From NCBI GenBank assembly GCA_013390785.1, contig JACASW010000003.1, positions 1 to 64,000 of the forward strand: DNA of 64,000 bases. The letters are read 5' to 3'. The notes under the pieces were generated by a model, which did no database searches, was not told the origin of the DNA, and saw only the letters and a list, made by a program, of their open reading frames with translations. Made by a program: the position numbers and the translations under genes. The DNA is from Marine Group I thaumarchaeote (GTDB lineage Archaea; Thermoproteota; Nitrososphaeria; Nitrososphaerales; Nitrosopumilaceae). Below, piece after piece: positions 129 through 9,713 of the stretch (positions are counted from its first letter, which is position 1; each line of letters starts with the position of its first letter).

Positions 129-1235
129 GTGAGATTATTAGAATATCAGGCTAAGGAATTATTCAAGGAATATGACATTAGGATTCCAGATAGTATTGCC
201 TCCAAGGACATAGAAAGCGGGAGAAAGGATGCTGAAAAAATTGGATACCCATTTGTGATAAAGGCTCAAGTTCCTGTGGGTGGGCGTGGAAAAGCTGGTG
301 GTATACAAAAATGCCACAATGAGGATGAATTTGAATTGAAATATCCACAAGTTCTGAACATGACAATAAAGGGTGAAAAAACTCGTGCTATTCTACTTGA
401 AAAAATGTCAGAGTATGAAAAAGAAATTTACCTGTCATTATTCCTTAACAGAAGTAAAAGATGCTATACCATAATCTCCTCAGCTGAAGGCGGAGTTGAA
501 ATTGAATCAGTAAAGAATCAGACTATTCGAGAAGTTGGTTTAGGTGAGGTGACGAAAAAAGTTGCTGAAGAAGTTGCAAAAGAAATTGGTCTTAAAGAAA
601 ACTCAATACCTCATTTTGTGGATATTTTACAAAAACTGTCAAAACTAACAGTAGAAAAAGAAGCGGAGTTAACGGAGATCAATCCACTTGTAATACTCAA
701 GGATGGCTCCATGATGGCACTAGATGGCAAAATGATGACTGATGATAATTCTAACTTCAGACACAAGGAACTTGCAAAATATCAGGAAAAAACTGAGCTT
801 GAAAAAATGGCGGAGGAAAGTGGATTTTCACTTGTAGAACTAGATGGTAATGTAGCTGTTATCGGAAACGGTGCAGGTCTTGTAATGTCAACGCTTGACA
901 TGCTTACTGATAACGGCGGAAAGGCTGCTTGCTTCCTAGATGTTGGTGGAACTGCTACTACAGAATCAGTCTACGAAGCTTTAACTCTCATCAGCAAAAT
1001 GAAAAATGTCAAAGCGGTTTTGGTAAATCTTTACGGTGGAATAGTAAAAACAAGTATTGTAGCATCTGCATTTCTCAAAGCATATGATGACAAAATAATA
1101 GTTTTGCCAGTTTTTGCTAGATTGATGGGTGCAGAATCAGAAAAATCAAAAGAGATGTTGAAAGATAGTGAAACAAAGTTATCGCCATCGATTGAAGAGG
1201 CAATAAACAATGTGGTTATGGAGGTCAATAAATGA
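129..1235 (+). CDS. sucC: Succinyl-CoA ligase (ADP-forming), beta subunit
   Basis: ATP-grasp subunit of succinyl-CoA synthetase, which interconverts succinyl-CoA, ADP and Pi with succinate, ATP and CoA in the cytoplasm. The N-terminus (MRLLEYQAKELF) is the family start, followed by the ATP-grasp region (about residues 1-220, with VPVGGRGKAGGI and EINPLV) and the C-terminal ligase domain (about 240-368, with NGAGLVMSTLD and FLDVGG). The start is GTG at 129. Length (368 aa) is near normal for the family. The stop overlaps the sucD start by 4 bp (ATGA), so the subunits are translationally coupled. In ammonia-oxidizing archaea this enzyme links succinyl-CoA from the carbon-fixation cycle to the partial citric acid cycle; that role is inferred from the organism. 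Confidence 0.95.
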   Translation: MRLLEYQAKELFKEYDIRIPDSIASKDIESGRKDAEKIGYPFVIKAQVPVGGRGKAGGIQKCHNEDEFELKYPQVLNMTIKGEKTRAILLEKMSEYEKEIYLSLFLNRSKRCYTIISSAEGGVEIESVKNQTIREVGLGEVTKKVAEEVAKEIGLKENSIPHFVDILQKLSKLTVEKEAELTEINPLVILKDGSMMALDGKMMTDDNSNFRHKELAKYQEKTELEKMAEESGFSLVELDGNVAVIGNGAGLVMSTLDMLTDNGGKAACFLDVGGTATTESVYEALTLISKMKNVKAVLVNLYGGIVKTSIVASAFLKAYDDKIIVLPVFARLMGAESEKSKEMLKDSETKLSPSIEEAINNVVMEVNK

Positions 1236-2134
1236 CTGACATCTTTGAACTTTTGAAAGGAAAAGGATCTGAAAAACAACCTGTCATAGTACAAGGAATA
1301 ACTGGAAAGTTTGGTACGCGGCATACAAATCTAATGATAGAATATGGTACTAACATTGTTGCTGGTGTTACTCCCGGTAAAGGCGGACAAAAATTTGAAG
1401 ATTCAGTTCCAATTTATGAAACAGCAAAAGAAGCTGTTGATGCAACGGGTGCAAAAATTTCTATCATGTTTGTTCCTGCTAAATTCTTTTTAGGTGCAGC
1501 AAAGGATGCACTAGAAGCGGGAATAAAATTGCTTATAGCTATTCCAGAACATGTACCAGTACAAGATGCAATGAAAACAATTGAGCTTGCAAAACAAAAA
1601 GGTGCAATAATGATTGGTCCAAACACGCCTGGAGTTATGATACCAGATTTAATCAAGATTGGAATCATGCCTGCATCACCATTCAAGTTTGGAAATGTGG
1701 CTGTTCTATCAAAAAGTGGAACTTTGCTTTATGAAATTAGTAACAATCTTTCAACCTCTGGATTCGGACAATGCATAACACTGGGCATTGGTGGTGATCC
1801 AATCAATGGTACTAGACTGATTGACGCATTTGATATGGTAAAGGATTATCCTAATCTTGATGGAATTGTTGTTGTTGGTGAAATAGGAGGAGATGCAGAA
1901 GAAGTATTTGCTCAAAAAATAATTGATGAGAACTTCAAAAAGCCAATTGTTGCTTACGTGGCAGGTAGAAAAGCTCCAAAAGAAAAGAGAATGGGTCATG
2001 CAGGTGCAATTGTCATGGGAAATTATGGATCAGCTGAATCTAAAATAGCAATGTTCTCAAAGGCCAACATTCCAGTTGCCAAAAGACCAGTAGAAGTACC
2101 GATATTACTTGCTGGAAAGATGGAAAAAAAATAG
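1232..2134 (+). CDS. sucD: Succinyl-CoA ligase (ADP-forming), alpha subunit
   Basis: Alpha subunit carrying the CoA-binding Rossmann domain (about residues 18-110, with VQGITGKFGTRH) and the phosphohistidine loop GHAGAIV near residue 255; His256 is the expected phosphorylated residue. Conserved GPNTPG (binding region) and SKSGTLLYEI segments are present. The length of 300 aa is close to that of bacterial and archaeal SucD. The ATG overlaps the sucC stop, and the ribosomal protein L40e gene follows 29 bp downstream on the same strand. Confidence 0.95.
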   Translation: MTDIFELLKGKGSEKQPVIVQGITGKFGTRHTNLMIEYGTNIVAGVTPGKGGQKFEDSVPIYETAKEAVDATGAKISIMFVPAKFFLGAAKDALEAGIKLLIAIPEHVPVQDAMKTIELAKQKGAIMIGPNTPGVMIPDLIKIGIMPASPFKFGNVAVLSKSGTLLYEISNNLSTSGFGQCITLGIGGDPINGTRLIDAFDMVKDYPNLDGIVVVGEIGGDAEEVFAQKIIDENFKKPIVAYVAGRKAPKEKRMGHAGAIVMGNYGSAESKIAMFSKANIPVAKRPVEVPILLAGKMEKK

Positions 2135-2989: not shown

Positions 2990-3667
2990 ATGTTGGCAGA
3001 ATCGGCAAAAAATCTTGTACCTAAATTTTTTGATGAGACTGGAACAACCTATGATGGCGTTGTTTCGTATGGCACATTAGGCAAGGACAGATACTGGAAG
3101 AGTAAGATATTGGAACAAATTTCTGATGGAAATTCTTTCTTGGATCTAGCTTGTGGCACTGGCATTCTTACAAGGAAAATAGCCGAAAAATTTCCCAGTA
3201 CGGAGATAGTTGGCATTGACATTACCAAAAGTTATCTTGATGTGGCAAAGGAAAATTCAAATTCGTTTGATAACATCTCGTTTATTCTTGACGACGCGGA
3301 AAAATTCAAACTGGATTCAAAGTTTGACTGTATTACTGGATCATATCTGCCAAAATACTGTGACCCGGAAATACTTGTGAAAAATTGTGTGGCACATCTC
3401 AAGCCTGGTGGCAAAATCATCTTCCATGATTTCACATATCCAAAAAATCCAGCTGTCAGGGGGCTGTGGAACTTCTTTCTTACTTTCTTGCTGTTGGTTG
3501 GATGTTTCATTCCAAGTTGGAAGGATGCGCTAATCGGACTGCCAAAATTAATTCGAAGAACCAAATGGCTGGACAGTTATTCTGATGTAATGAAGAAAAG
3601 TGGGCTGAAGGTGAGCCAGCAATACCTTACATACGGTGCAGCCGCAATTCTAACTGGTACGAAATAA
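2990..3667 (+). CDS. Class I SAM-dependent methyltransferase, UbiE-like
   Basis: A 225-residue methyltransferase with motif I FLDLACGTGILTRKIAE (about residues 46-62), GIDITKSYL as the acidic loop, and a post-motif HLKPGGKIIFHDF (about 135-147). A hydrophobic segment near residues 160-175 (FLTFLLLVGCF) suggests membrane contact or a lipid-like substrate, as in ubiquinone/menaquinone methyltransferases. Thaumarchaea use menaquinone-type quinones, so a quinone role is possible but unproven. The reductase gene at 3696 follows 28 bp downstream. Confidence 0.8.
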   Translation: MLAESAKNLVPKFFDETGTTYDGVVSYGTLGKDRYWKSKILEQISDGNSFLDLACGTGILTRKIAEKFPSTEIVGIDITKSYLDVAKENSNSFDNISFILDDAEKFKLDSKFDCITGSYLPKYCDPEILVKNCVAHLKPGGKIIFHDFTYPKNPAVRGLWNFFLTFLLLVGCFIPSWKDALIGLPKLIRRTKWLDSYSDVMKKSGLKVSQQYLTYGAAAILTGTK

Positions 3668-3695: not shown

Positions 3696-4769
3696 ATGAA
3701 AGCACTAGTCTATGAAAATTATGCGCAGGATGATGATTTTGAATCTATTTTACAGATAAAGGACATTCCGGAGCCCACACCAAAACCAAACGATGTAATT
3801 TTTCGCGTAAAGGCTGCAGCATTAAACTATGATGACATATGGGGCATGAGAGGAAAGCCACTTGCAGTTCCATTGCCACACATTTCCGGAACTGATGCCG
3901 CGGGTGAGGTAATCGCAATTGGTGACAGTGTAAAGAACATCAAAGTTGGAGACAGGATTGTTTCCCATGGAAACATGTCATGTCGCGTCTGTGCACTATG
4001 TACCGATGGCAGGGAATACGATTGCAGACAACGAAAAATTTGGGGATTTGAAACTGGACCACTTTGGGGTGGCTACTGTGAAGTTGCACACCTTCCAGAA
4101 ATTAATGTCATGAAAATTCCGGACAATGTAAGTTATGAGGAAGCTGCGGCTGCGTCAATGACACTTTTAACATCATGGCACATGTTGGTTGGACGAGCCA
4201 AGATTAAACCAGGTCAAACTATTCTTGTCATGGGTGGCAGTTCCGGCGTTGGAATATTTGGAATTCAAATTGCAAAACTGTATGATTGTATAGTTATTGC
4301 CACAGCAAGTCCTGACAAACTGGAAAGGCTCAAAGAACTTGGAGCAGATTATGCTGTGGATCATAGAAAGGAAGACTGGCACAAAGAAGTCAGAGGAATA
4401 ACCAAAGAGATTGCAAAGAGAGATGGTGTCTTGCCGGGAGTTGATGTAATCTTTGAGCACATTGGTGGCTCCCACTGGAACAAGGAACTGACATTGCTGA
4501 AATATGGCTCAACAATTGTAACCACAGGAGCTACGACTGGATATGATGTGCCGACCGACCTGCGCCACATATTTTTCAAGGGCATCAACATTTTAGGCTC
4601 CACACAGGGAACTCGCGCCGAGTTGGAGGCAGGATTTCACTGGATGGGTCAGGGAAAGATAAAGGCGATTATCGACTCTGTCTTTACACTTGAGAATGCG
4701 GTGGAGGCTCACAAAAAGATGCTCAATGGAAAAGGACTAGTCGGAAAGATAATCCTCAAGCCAAACTAA
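3696..4769 (+). CDS. Medium-chain reductase resembling crotonyl-CoA carboxylase/reductase; candidate enoyl- or acryloyl-CoA reductase
   Basis: MDR-superfamily oxidoreductase, 357 aa. The N-terminal GroES-like domain lacks the catalytic-zinc cysteine of alcohol dehydrogenases: the position reads AALNYDDIWGMRG, as in enoyl/acyl-CoA reductases. The structural zinc lobe is intact (CRVCALCTDGREYDC, about residues 97-111). The Rossmann domain has GGSSGVGIFGIQIA (about 180-193). Several segments recall crotonyl-CoA carboxylase/reductase: HISGTDAAGEV, RKIWGFET, VDVIFEHIGG and TTGATTGYD. From family knowledge such enzymes reduce 2-enoyl-CoAs with NADPH. A role in the acryloyl-CoA or crotonyl-CoA step is inference. 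Its 3' end overlaps the convergent membrane-protein gene by 14 bp. Confidence 0.75.
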   Translation: MKALVYENYAQDDDFESILQIKDIPEPTPKPNDVIFRVKAAALNYDDIWGMRGKPLAVPLPHISGTDAAGEVIAIGDSVKNIKVGDRIVSHGNMSCRVCALCTDGREYDCRQRKIWGFETGPLWGGYCEVAHLPEINVMKIPDNVSYEEAAAASMTLLTSWHMLVGRAKIKPGQTILVMGGSSGVGIFGIQIAKLYDCIVIATASPDKLERLKELGADYAVDHRKEDWHKEVRGITKEIAKRDGVLPGVDVIFEHIGGSHWNKELTLLKYGSTIVTTGATTGYDVPTDLRHIFFKGINILGSTQGTRAELEAGFHWMGQGKIKAIIDSVFTLENAVEAHKKMLNGKGLVGKIILKPN

Positions 4770-5448
4770 ACCTTACAGCAAGAAATATTGCAGTGCCAAC
4801 CAAAACTCCAATCGTAAGAAGTTTTAGAATGGTCTCACACCTTTTAATCTCTGAATGACTTCCGTTATCGCGCCTTAGGTGCTTGTACTTTCTTGATGTC
4901 GTTATCAAAATGTAAGTTATGACTGAAGAGATTCCACAAAGTATGATTGCTTCCAGCGATATTGAGTTAGTCTGGATTGCCGAGCCGGCAAAAATTGGTA
5001 GTATTGCCCATGCAATTATTGTTGTTGAATTGTTGTGGAACTTTCCCCTGAACAATTCCAAATTATATGCAAACAGGAAGAACCCTTCCGCAATTCCTAT
5101 CGCAAATAGCAGGGGCGAATCCAAGAAGGCATAGTACATTCCAATTGTAAATGCAATTCCCAGAACAATCATTGATACAGTCCAGAGTTTTCTCTTTGGC
5201 AAATCTCCCCACGGCTTTGTCTTTCCGCCAACCGCGTCCAGCAGGTGGGCTGAAATCCCAAGCGCCAGAAAATAAATCACACAAACTGCAATGAGCCGCT
5301 CCGTTTCAAAAGAGCCGGAGAGCGAGCCCCATGCCGCAAAGCAGGTGACGATGCTGGTGTATGGCAAAAACAGCAGACCTATTGTCACTCGAAAATTTCT
5401 AGAGCCAAATTTTGGAACAAACCATTCTGACGTCCTATCCCGAAGCAT
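4756..5448 (-). CDS. Multi-pass membrane protein, possibly a degenerate UbiA-type prenyltransferase relative
   Basis: A 230-residue hydrophobic protein with about seven predicted membrane segments. The first loop reads GISAHLLDAVGGKTKPWGDLPKRKLW, whose layout recalls the loop after helix 2 of UbiA prenyltransferases (N-D-x-x-D ... RP-P-G), but the aspartate-rich motif is mostly lost. A UbiA-like fold is therefore only a weak suggestion and no function is assigned. It is convergent with the reductase gene (14-bp overlap) and divergent from the cupin gene. Confidence 0.6.
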   Translation of the reverse strand: MLRDRTSEWFVPKFGSRNFRVTIGLLFLPYTSIVTCFAAWGSLSGSFETERLIAVCVIYFLALGISAHLLDAVGGKTKPWGDLPKRKLWTVSMIVLGIAFTIGMYYAFLDSPLLFAIGIAEGFFLFAYNLELFRGKFHNNSTTIIAWAILPIFAGSAIQTNSISLEAIILCGISSVITYILITTSRKYKHLRRDNGSHSEIKRCETILKLLTIGVLVGTAIFLAVRFSLA

Positions 5449-8516: not shown

Positions 8517-9713
8517 TTATTTCTTATATTTTTCCGCTTCTTCTGACCCACCAGTAGCTGTTCCTTTACTGTAAGAATGAGCGCCTGCACCCGCAAGTTC
8601 TCCGTTTTGTACAATTAGGTATTGAGGTCTAATTTGCATGTCATCAAAAAAGCATTCTAATATTTCTCTTGTACCAGCAGCATATCTTGTCTGTGCTGAT
8701 AATGATGTGCCTGATGTGTGTGGTGTCATACCATGATTTGGCATAGTTCTCCAGACGTGATCGTTAGGTGCTGGTTGAGGAAACCAAACATCTCCTGCGT
8801 ATCCACTCAAGTGCCCAGACTTTAAAGCGTCAGCAATCGCTTCTCTATTACAAATCTTGCCTCTAGCTGTATTGATAAGATATGCACCTTTTTTCATTTT
8901 ACTGATTAATTCTTTATTAAACATATTTTCTGTTTCTGGATGTAATGGGCAGTTAATTGTAACTACATCACAGACAGCAACCATTGATTCCACAGTTTCG
9001 TGAAACGTTAAATCTAATTCTTTTTCAACTGATTCAGGTAATCTGTGTCTATCAAAGTAGTGTAAATGAGTTTCAAATGGTTTTAATTTTCTTAACGCAG
9101 CTAATCCTATTCTACCTGCTGCTACCGTACCTATATGCATACCCTCTACGTCATAAGAACGCTGTACAGCGTCAGCAATATTCCAACCGCCTGATTTTGC
9201 AATTGCATGTTGATTATGATAGTCTCTAACCATAGCTAAAATCATCATAACAATATGTTCAGATACAGAAATTGAATTACAATACGTAACTTCAACTACA
9301 TCTATCTTATTATCCATCGCAGCCTGCAAATCAACATGATCTGAGCCAATGCCAGCCGTAATTGCCATTTTTAGATTCTTTGCTTTTTCTATTAGTTCTC
9401 TTGTTAAATAGAAAGGCCAAAACGGTTGTGATATTACAACATCAGCATCCATTATTTCTTTAGCAGCAACTGAATTAGGACCATCTTTATCAGATGTGAC
9501 CACCAATGTGTGCCCCCTGTCTTCTAAAAATTTTCTTAAACCTAATTCACCAGAAACACAACCAAGTAATTCACCTGGTGTAAAATCAATTGCCTTTGGT
9601 GTTGGTAGCGTCATACCATCCGGATATTTTTTTAATTCTGGTAGTTCATTTAATGGATAGTTCTTTGGCATTCCATCTTTGGGGTCATCATATAATACAC
9701 ATAATATTTTCAT
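8517..9713 (-). CDS. fdh: NAD-dependent formate dehydrogenase (bacterial/plant type)
   Basis: D-2-hydroxyacid dehydrogenase superfamily enzyme of 398 aa that matches metal-free NAD+ formate dehydrogenase (formate + NAD+ to CO2 + NADH) over its whole length. Diagnostic segments include the FDH N-terminal stretch LPTPKAIDFTPGELLG, SQPFWP (formate pocket Pro-Phe), TAGIGSDHVD, VTYCNSISVSEH (substrate Asn), nucleotide loop GTVAAGRIGL, YFDRHRLPE (Asp-Arg-His selecting NAD+), NTARGK (catalytic Arg), GYAGDVWFPQPAP (Gln), and GMTPHTSGT (catalytic His). The C-terminal tail SYSKGTATGGSEEA is also FDH-specific. The tRNA-Val gene lies 34 bp upstream on the same strand. Such enzymes are rare in archaea, so transfer from bacteria is likely. 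Confidence 0.95.
   Translation of the reverse strand: MKILCVLYDDPKDGMPKNYPLNELPELKKYPDGMTLPTPKAIDFTPGELLGCVSGELGLRKFLEDRGHTLVVTSDKDGPNSVAAKEIMDADVVISQPFWPFYLTRELIEKAKNLKMAITAGIGSDHVDLQAAMDNKIDVVEVTYCNSISVSEHIVMMILAMVRDYHNQHAIAKSGGWNIADAVQRSYDVEGMHIGTVAAGRIGLAALRKLKPFETHLHYFDRHRLPESVEKELDLTFHETVESMVAVCDVVTINCPLHPETENMFNKELISKMKKGAYLINTARGKICNREAIADALKSGHLSGYAGDVWFPQPAPNDHVWRTMPNHGMTPHTSGTSLSAQTRYAAGTREILECFFDDMQIRPQYLIVQNGELAGAGAHSYSKGTATGGSEEAEKYKK

Follow-up and report, generated by a model that had tools for sequence, protein, structure and literature searches.

The stretch of DNA analysed here (the window) comprises 64,000 nucleotides of contig JACASW010000003.1 from a Marine Group I thaumarchaeote. 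Near its start, on the forward strand, lies an intact open reading frame with an ATG start and no internal stop, the product of which has no Pfam matches other than two generic MDR domains, ADH_N and ADH_zinc_N (the latter at residues 184-316). The gene, its upstream neighbours and the residues that bear on its function are as follows.

129-2134, forward strand: a sucC/sucD-like succinate-CoA ligase pair, scoring slightly under the NCBIfam equivalog cut-offs
2990-3667, forward strand: a UbiE/MenG-like methyltransferase, 28 bases upstream of the reductase gene on the same strand
3696-4769, forward strand: a predicted zinc-independent MDR enoyl-CoA reductase of 357 amino acids; within the thaumarchaeal acryloyl-CoA reductase family it is copy A, the Asp46 type
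3825-3836, forward strand: N44-Y-D46-D, placed and numbered by alignment
3888-3896, forward strand: G65-T66-D67, in place of the GHE motif (zinc His) of alcohol dehydrogenases (ADHs); GSD in crotonyl-CoA carboxylase/reductases (CCRs)
3981-4025, forward strand: the structural zinc lobe, C96-x2-C99-x2-C102-x7-C110
4041-4055, forward strand: W116-G-F118-E119-T, aligned with WGFET of CCRs
4158-4160, forward strand: M155, in place of the third catalytic-zinc Cys of ADHs
4233-4253, forward strand: GGSSGVG, the dinucleotide-binding turn of the Rossmann domain
4602-4604, forward strand: T303, aligned with His365 of the K. setae CCR

The methyltransferase gene is linked to the reductase gene in close relatives only. 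An earlier note on this DNA had taken the sucCD pair as a supporting neighbour; the pair exists, but together with methyltransferases it accompanies copy A in just 4 of the best 80 loci, all four at least 92% identical, and it was rejected as a functional argument. Across those 80 loci copy A has no conserved neighbourhood. On the complementary strand, a gene for an apparent membrane protein of 230 amino acids (4756-5448) overlaps the reductase gene tail to tail by 14 bases (4756-4769); no NCBIfam match was found for its product. Further downstream, also on the complementary strand, a gene that strongly matches NAD-dependent formate dehydrogenase (8517-9713; NF005750, 669 bits against a cut-off of 329) is present in only 4 of 61 Nitrosopumilaceae genomes, which suggests that marine ammonia oxidizers acquired formate oxidation patchily.

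Homologues of the window protein with 75-97% identity occur in at least 80 named contigs, nearly all from Nitrosopumilaceae, and chance can thus be excluded as the source of the features listed above. In an alignment of 75 sequences, the window protein keeps none of the three ligands that hold the catalytic zinc in ADHs (Cys, the His of GHE, and Cys): it has N44, T66 and M155 there, with N44 standing at the first cysteine. The four cysteines of the structural lobe, by comparison, are invariant in 78 family members. The segments RKIWGFET, DVIFEHIGG and TTGATTGYD are all present in the translation, and phmmer aligns them with QRIWGYETG, VDIVFEHPG and AGTTGFN of the CCR 4GI2 (135 bits, E 2.5e-38). 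The earlier note had read the protein as having lost the catalytic zinc Cys, kept the structural lobe and acquired CCR-like segments, and on each point the fuller comparison agrees with it.

None of the curated NCBIfam models reaches its own cut-off with the window protein. It scores 180.9 bits with the CCR equivalog model (cut-off 378.55), 148 with the Sulfolobales acryloyl-CoA reductase equivalog NF041172 (500), 64 with the AcuI acrylyl-CoA reductase equivalog NF051456 (440) and 186 with the PIG3 quinone oxidoreductase subfamily TIGR02824 (297); a putative ADH model also gives 186 bits, under its cut-off. The best sequence matches in the PDB are 2EIH from Thermus thermophilus (234 bits, 36% identity), 5K1S, which we take to be the enoyl-CoA reductase AibC, and the CCR 4GI2. 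When an AlphaFold model of the window protein was searched with Foldseek, the same three entries came first in the same order. The model has a mean pLDDT of 82 but is unreliable at residues 94-125 (pLDDT below 50), a region that includes F118 and E119, and side-chain geometry therefore carries no claim here. Like the window protein, 2EIH has none of the three catalytic zinc ligands, which makes its title of NAD-dependent alcohol dehydrogenase doubtful and probably wrong. It differs in falling outside the clade of ammonia-oxidizing archaea (AOA) described below and in having ILGEH where the window protein has WGFET.

The main tree, of 36 rows, was designed to break up the long CCR branch. AOA family members form a single clade in it (support 99/99; 100/99 in another tree), and the window protein groups there with the members from Nitrosopumilus maritimus and Nitrososphaera viennensis. 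The sister group of this clade is CCR (96/95). Because CCR is a long branch, attraction could affect this placement, but it survived the addition of further CCRs. Forcing the AOA clade together with ADHs is rejected (p-AU 0.006), whereas a grouping with the zinc-free, Thermus-like group around 2EIH is not (p-AU 0.20), so the affinity to CCR is supported without being exclusive. The placement in an MDR tree that had been proposed as a check thus separates the protein from ADHs and leaves a 2EIH-like grouping standing. A quinone oxidoreductase or alcohol dehydrogenase with no role in the carbon-fixation cycle is the least probable of the functions considered here. The scores with the PIG3 and putative ADH models and the title of 2EIH point towards it, but both scores are under their cut-offs, 2EIH too is without the catalytic zinc ligands, the ADH grouping fails and the distribution of the family follows AmoA, as set out below.

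A union with the Sulfolobales acryloyl-CoA reductases, the Metallosphaera type that had also been suggested for comparison, is rejected as well (p-AU 1e-4). These enzymes (NF041172, Msed_1426 type) carry out the counterpart reaction in the crenarchaeal cycle and belong, like the window family, to the MDR superfamily, but LCYRD and GHE, the most distinct motifs of their active sites, resemble those of ADHs, unlike in the window protein. The thaumarchaeal and crenarchaeal acryloyl-CoA reductases are not orthologous, which agrees with an independent origin of the two cycles as proposed in the literature (PMC7845616). The AcuI/YhdH acrylyl-CoA reductases, also MDR proteins, catalyse the same reaction as the AOA family but have no structural zinc lobe.

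The statement in the earlier note that the thaumarchaeal acryloyl-CoA reductase has no assigned gene is outdated. The enzyme was still on the list of missing N. maritimus activities in a 2018 model paper (PMC6038301). The characterisation of an acrylyl-CoA reductase from N. maritimus in 2019 (doi 10.1021/jacs.9b03431) is reported in PMC10176493, PMC7918591, PMC8252502 and PMC12542715; the first three, which are reviews, also describe its engineering toward carboxylation in that year, and PMC10176493 and PMC7918591 mention a low carboxylation side activity. No single-mutant detail was found in this literature that would tell which N. maritimus copy, A or B, was engineered. In N. viennensis, according to a 2025 proteome study (PMC12542715), the protein Adh4 (NVIE_024420) rises together with cycle enzymes when carbon is limited; the study also states that its N. 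maritimus equivalent reduces acryloyl-CoA. The acryloyl-CoA reductase step of the thaumarchaeal cycle is no longer without a gene.

The position of Adh4 was traced in genome G151, which is presumably N. viennensis. Three strong thioredoxins there, at 2,020,671, 2,453,320 and 2,501,948, fit NVIE_024000 (TrxX), NVIE_029260 (TrxA1) and NVIE_030000, tags named in PMC12542715. Interpolation between the TrxX and TrxA1 anchors predicts NVIE_024420 at about 2.055 Mb, close to a family member at 2,053,619-2,054,665, and Adh4 thus maps to that gene. A third MDR (34% identical) at 1,968,465 had been a candidate for NVIE_024420 and was overturned by the thioredoxin anchors. Adh4 is about 56-58% identical to the window protein, compared with 78% for N. 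maritimus copy A and 71% for N. maritimus copy B; all are zinc-free members of the same clade with the structural zinc lobe.

The cycle has another reductase step without an assigned gene, the reduction of succinic semialdehyde, and the enzyme for this step in Metallosphaera, Msed_1424, is presumably an MDR too. PMC12542715 leaves open a succinic semialdehyde reductase activity of Adh4 in addition to its other one. It is nevertheless very unlikely that the window enzyme serves this step, since the three catalytic zinc ligands of MDR aldehyde reductases are all missing and the same genome encodes other MDRs (L003 and L004), the former with ADH-like zinc motifs.

The family is almost universal in AOA. 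At a membership threshold of E 1e-60 or better, it is present in 147 of the 148 genomes with archaeal AmoA in a sample of 200 Nitrososphaeria genomes. The one exception (G010) is 91% complete, and its sister genome (G045) has a family member. Members in AOA families match at E 1e-125 or better, save one fragmented gene (G159), whereas homologues in AmoA-negative families are just 38-43% identical and fall outside the AOA clade. Domains of 4-hydroxybutyryl-CoA dehydratase occur in most genomes that carry the reductase family. Searches for acyl-CoA dehydrogenase (PF02771) gave no match in the MAG that holds the window, in G046, which we take to be N. maritimus, or in three further Nitrosopumilaceae.

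This distribution belongs to the family and not to the window gene. In Nitrosopumilaceae the tree resolves two paralogs, A and B, that arose by a duplication within that family; a duplication of the reductase in Nitrososphaeraceae was a separate event. Among the 63 examined Nitrosopumilaceae genomes with any copy, all counts being from draft genomes, copy B (Asn46/Gln119) is present in 62, the exception being 68% complete, whereas copy A, the window type (Asp46 with Glu119 or Gln119), is present in 39. Present in 147 of 148 AmoA-positive genomes, the family tracks the AOA carbon-fixation cycle, and copy A by itself does not. Copy A is absent from the high-completeness autotrophic genomes G006, G015, G033, G116 and G145, of which G006 is a single contig, and the cycle therefore does not need it. 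The window's own genome (G000) carries both copies, with copy B at 817-1893 of contig C5. At the copy B locus the genes for S19e and a DNA-binding protein come before the reductase and a CitE-like lyase follows it; N. viennensis Adh4 and a Nitrosocaldus-type genome show the same arrangement. Copy B presumably carries the core flux, and the window gene is its accessory, optional sister. The earlier proposal of an acryloyl-CoA reductase candidate therefore stands as to family membership, which the tree clade bears out, but not as to a core gene of the cycle, the window copy being a dispensable paralog.

The two copies are about 70% identical and have T303, F118, N44 and the zinc-free core in common. 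Their differences can be set against the CO2 pocket of the K. setae CCR, which we take to consist of Asn81, Phe170, Glu171 and His365 (letters and numbers checked against the 6NA3 sequence), residues whose roles in CO2 binding were reportedly described by Stoffel et al. in 2019. At these positions the window protein has D46, F118, E119 and T303 and so matches two of the four. Position 303 is Thr in all 78 family members and His in all compared CCRs. Position 46 is Asp in 45 of 45 copy A sequences, and position 119 is Glu in 35 of them; all 15 copy B sequences have Asn46 and Gln119. Among the remaining AOA sequences, Asn46 is found in 17 of 18 and Gln119 in 18 of 18; N. viennensis Adh4 shares the Asn46/Gln119 pair with the universal copy, in contrast to Asp46/Glu119 in the window protein. 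Throughout the 63-genome set every Asn46 copy has Gln119, and Glu119 is seen only with Asp46, although one Asn46 sequence falls inside the copy A clade in a quick tree. Two of the differences between A and B thus sit at CO2-pocket positions.

A true CCR, that is, a carboxylating enoyl-CoA reductase, would fit the sister position of the CCR clade, the presence of F118 and E119, and the low carboxylation side activity mentioned for the N. maritimus enzyme. CCR/ECR proteins (K. setae 6NA3, 4GI2) also resemble the window family in their WGFET, FEHxG and TTG(Y/F) segments and in having no catalytic zinc. However, the window protein falls far below the CCR cut-off (181 bits), the AOA proteins are some 50-90 residues shorter, and every compared copy A has Asp at the Asn81 position and Thr at that of His365, the latter difference extending to all copies. 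The loss of both equivalents argues against efficient carboxylation, and we regard carboxylation as the enzyme's function as highly improbable. What holds of the CCR-like assignment first made for this protein is an MDR of the zinc-free, CCR-related enoyl-CoA reductase type.

The product of the window gene is probably a 2-enoyl-CoA reductase that uses NAD(P)H and belongs to the thaumarchaeal acryloyl-CoA reductase family, as an accessory Asp46-type paralog that needs no catalytic metal. If the reaction proceeds as in CCR and related non-carboxylating enzymes, hydride from NAD(P)H would be transferred to C3 of the enoyl-CoA and the resulting enolate protonated at C2, with no metal taking part in the reduction. 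Which cofactor and substrate this copy uses, and what it does in vivo, are inferred here, acryloyl-CoA being taken over from the family; the enzyme is probably a second, non-carboxylating acryloyl-CoA reductase.

The main rival is that copy A remains an enoyl-CoA reductase but has shifted from acryloyl-CoA to another substrate, such as crotonyl-CoA or a branched enoyl-CoA. Such a shift may be reflected in the two active-site positions at which copy A has changes of its own, and the duplication within Nitrosopumilaceae, the fixed Asp46 with frequent Glu119, the patchy retention and the unconserved neighbourhood all fit. The high identity of the two copies and their shared core residues speak against it, and a dosage or regulatory duplicate would account equally well for the retention of copy A; a shifted substrate seems unlikely. 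Somewhat less doubtful, though still tentative, is the broader idea that Nitrosopumilaceae re-tuned the duplicate at CO2-pocket sites (Asn to Asp and often Gln to Glu) for another substrate or another way of quenching the enolate, and that marine lineages then retained it patchily.

A second acryloyl-CoA reductase, as preferred here, would act at a step through which dark-ocean carbon fixation by ammonia-oxidizing archaea passes. Pointing to the existing assignment of that step guards against a duplicate claim, and labelling every family member as the cycle's acryloyl-CoA reductase merges two paralogs. The split between A and B offers a natural pair, about 70% identical and differing at CO2-pocket positions, with which the divergence of reductases from reductive carboxylases may be probed.

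Two further observations concern the wider family. The genomes G034, G037, G044, G054 and G058 carry additional copies or copies that do not fit the usual A/B pair, among them two proteins, L278 and L279, about 54% identical to the window protein. The universal reductase copy is directly adjoined in the window's own genome by a lyase of the CitE/HpcH type (L002, 1901-2752 of contig C5), which scores 225 bits with TIGR01588, under the cut-off; such a lyase also stands beside copy B, or the gene that corresponds to it, in L124, L126, L129, L131, L132 and L134, an adjacency that extends from Nitrosocaldus-type genomes through Nitrosopumilus.
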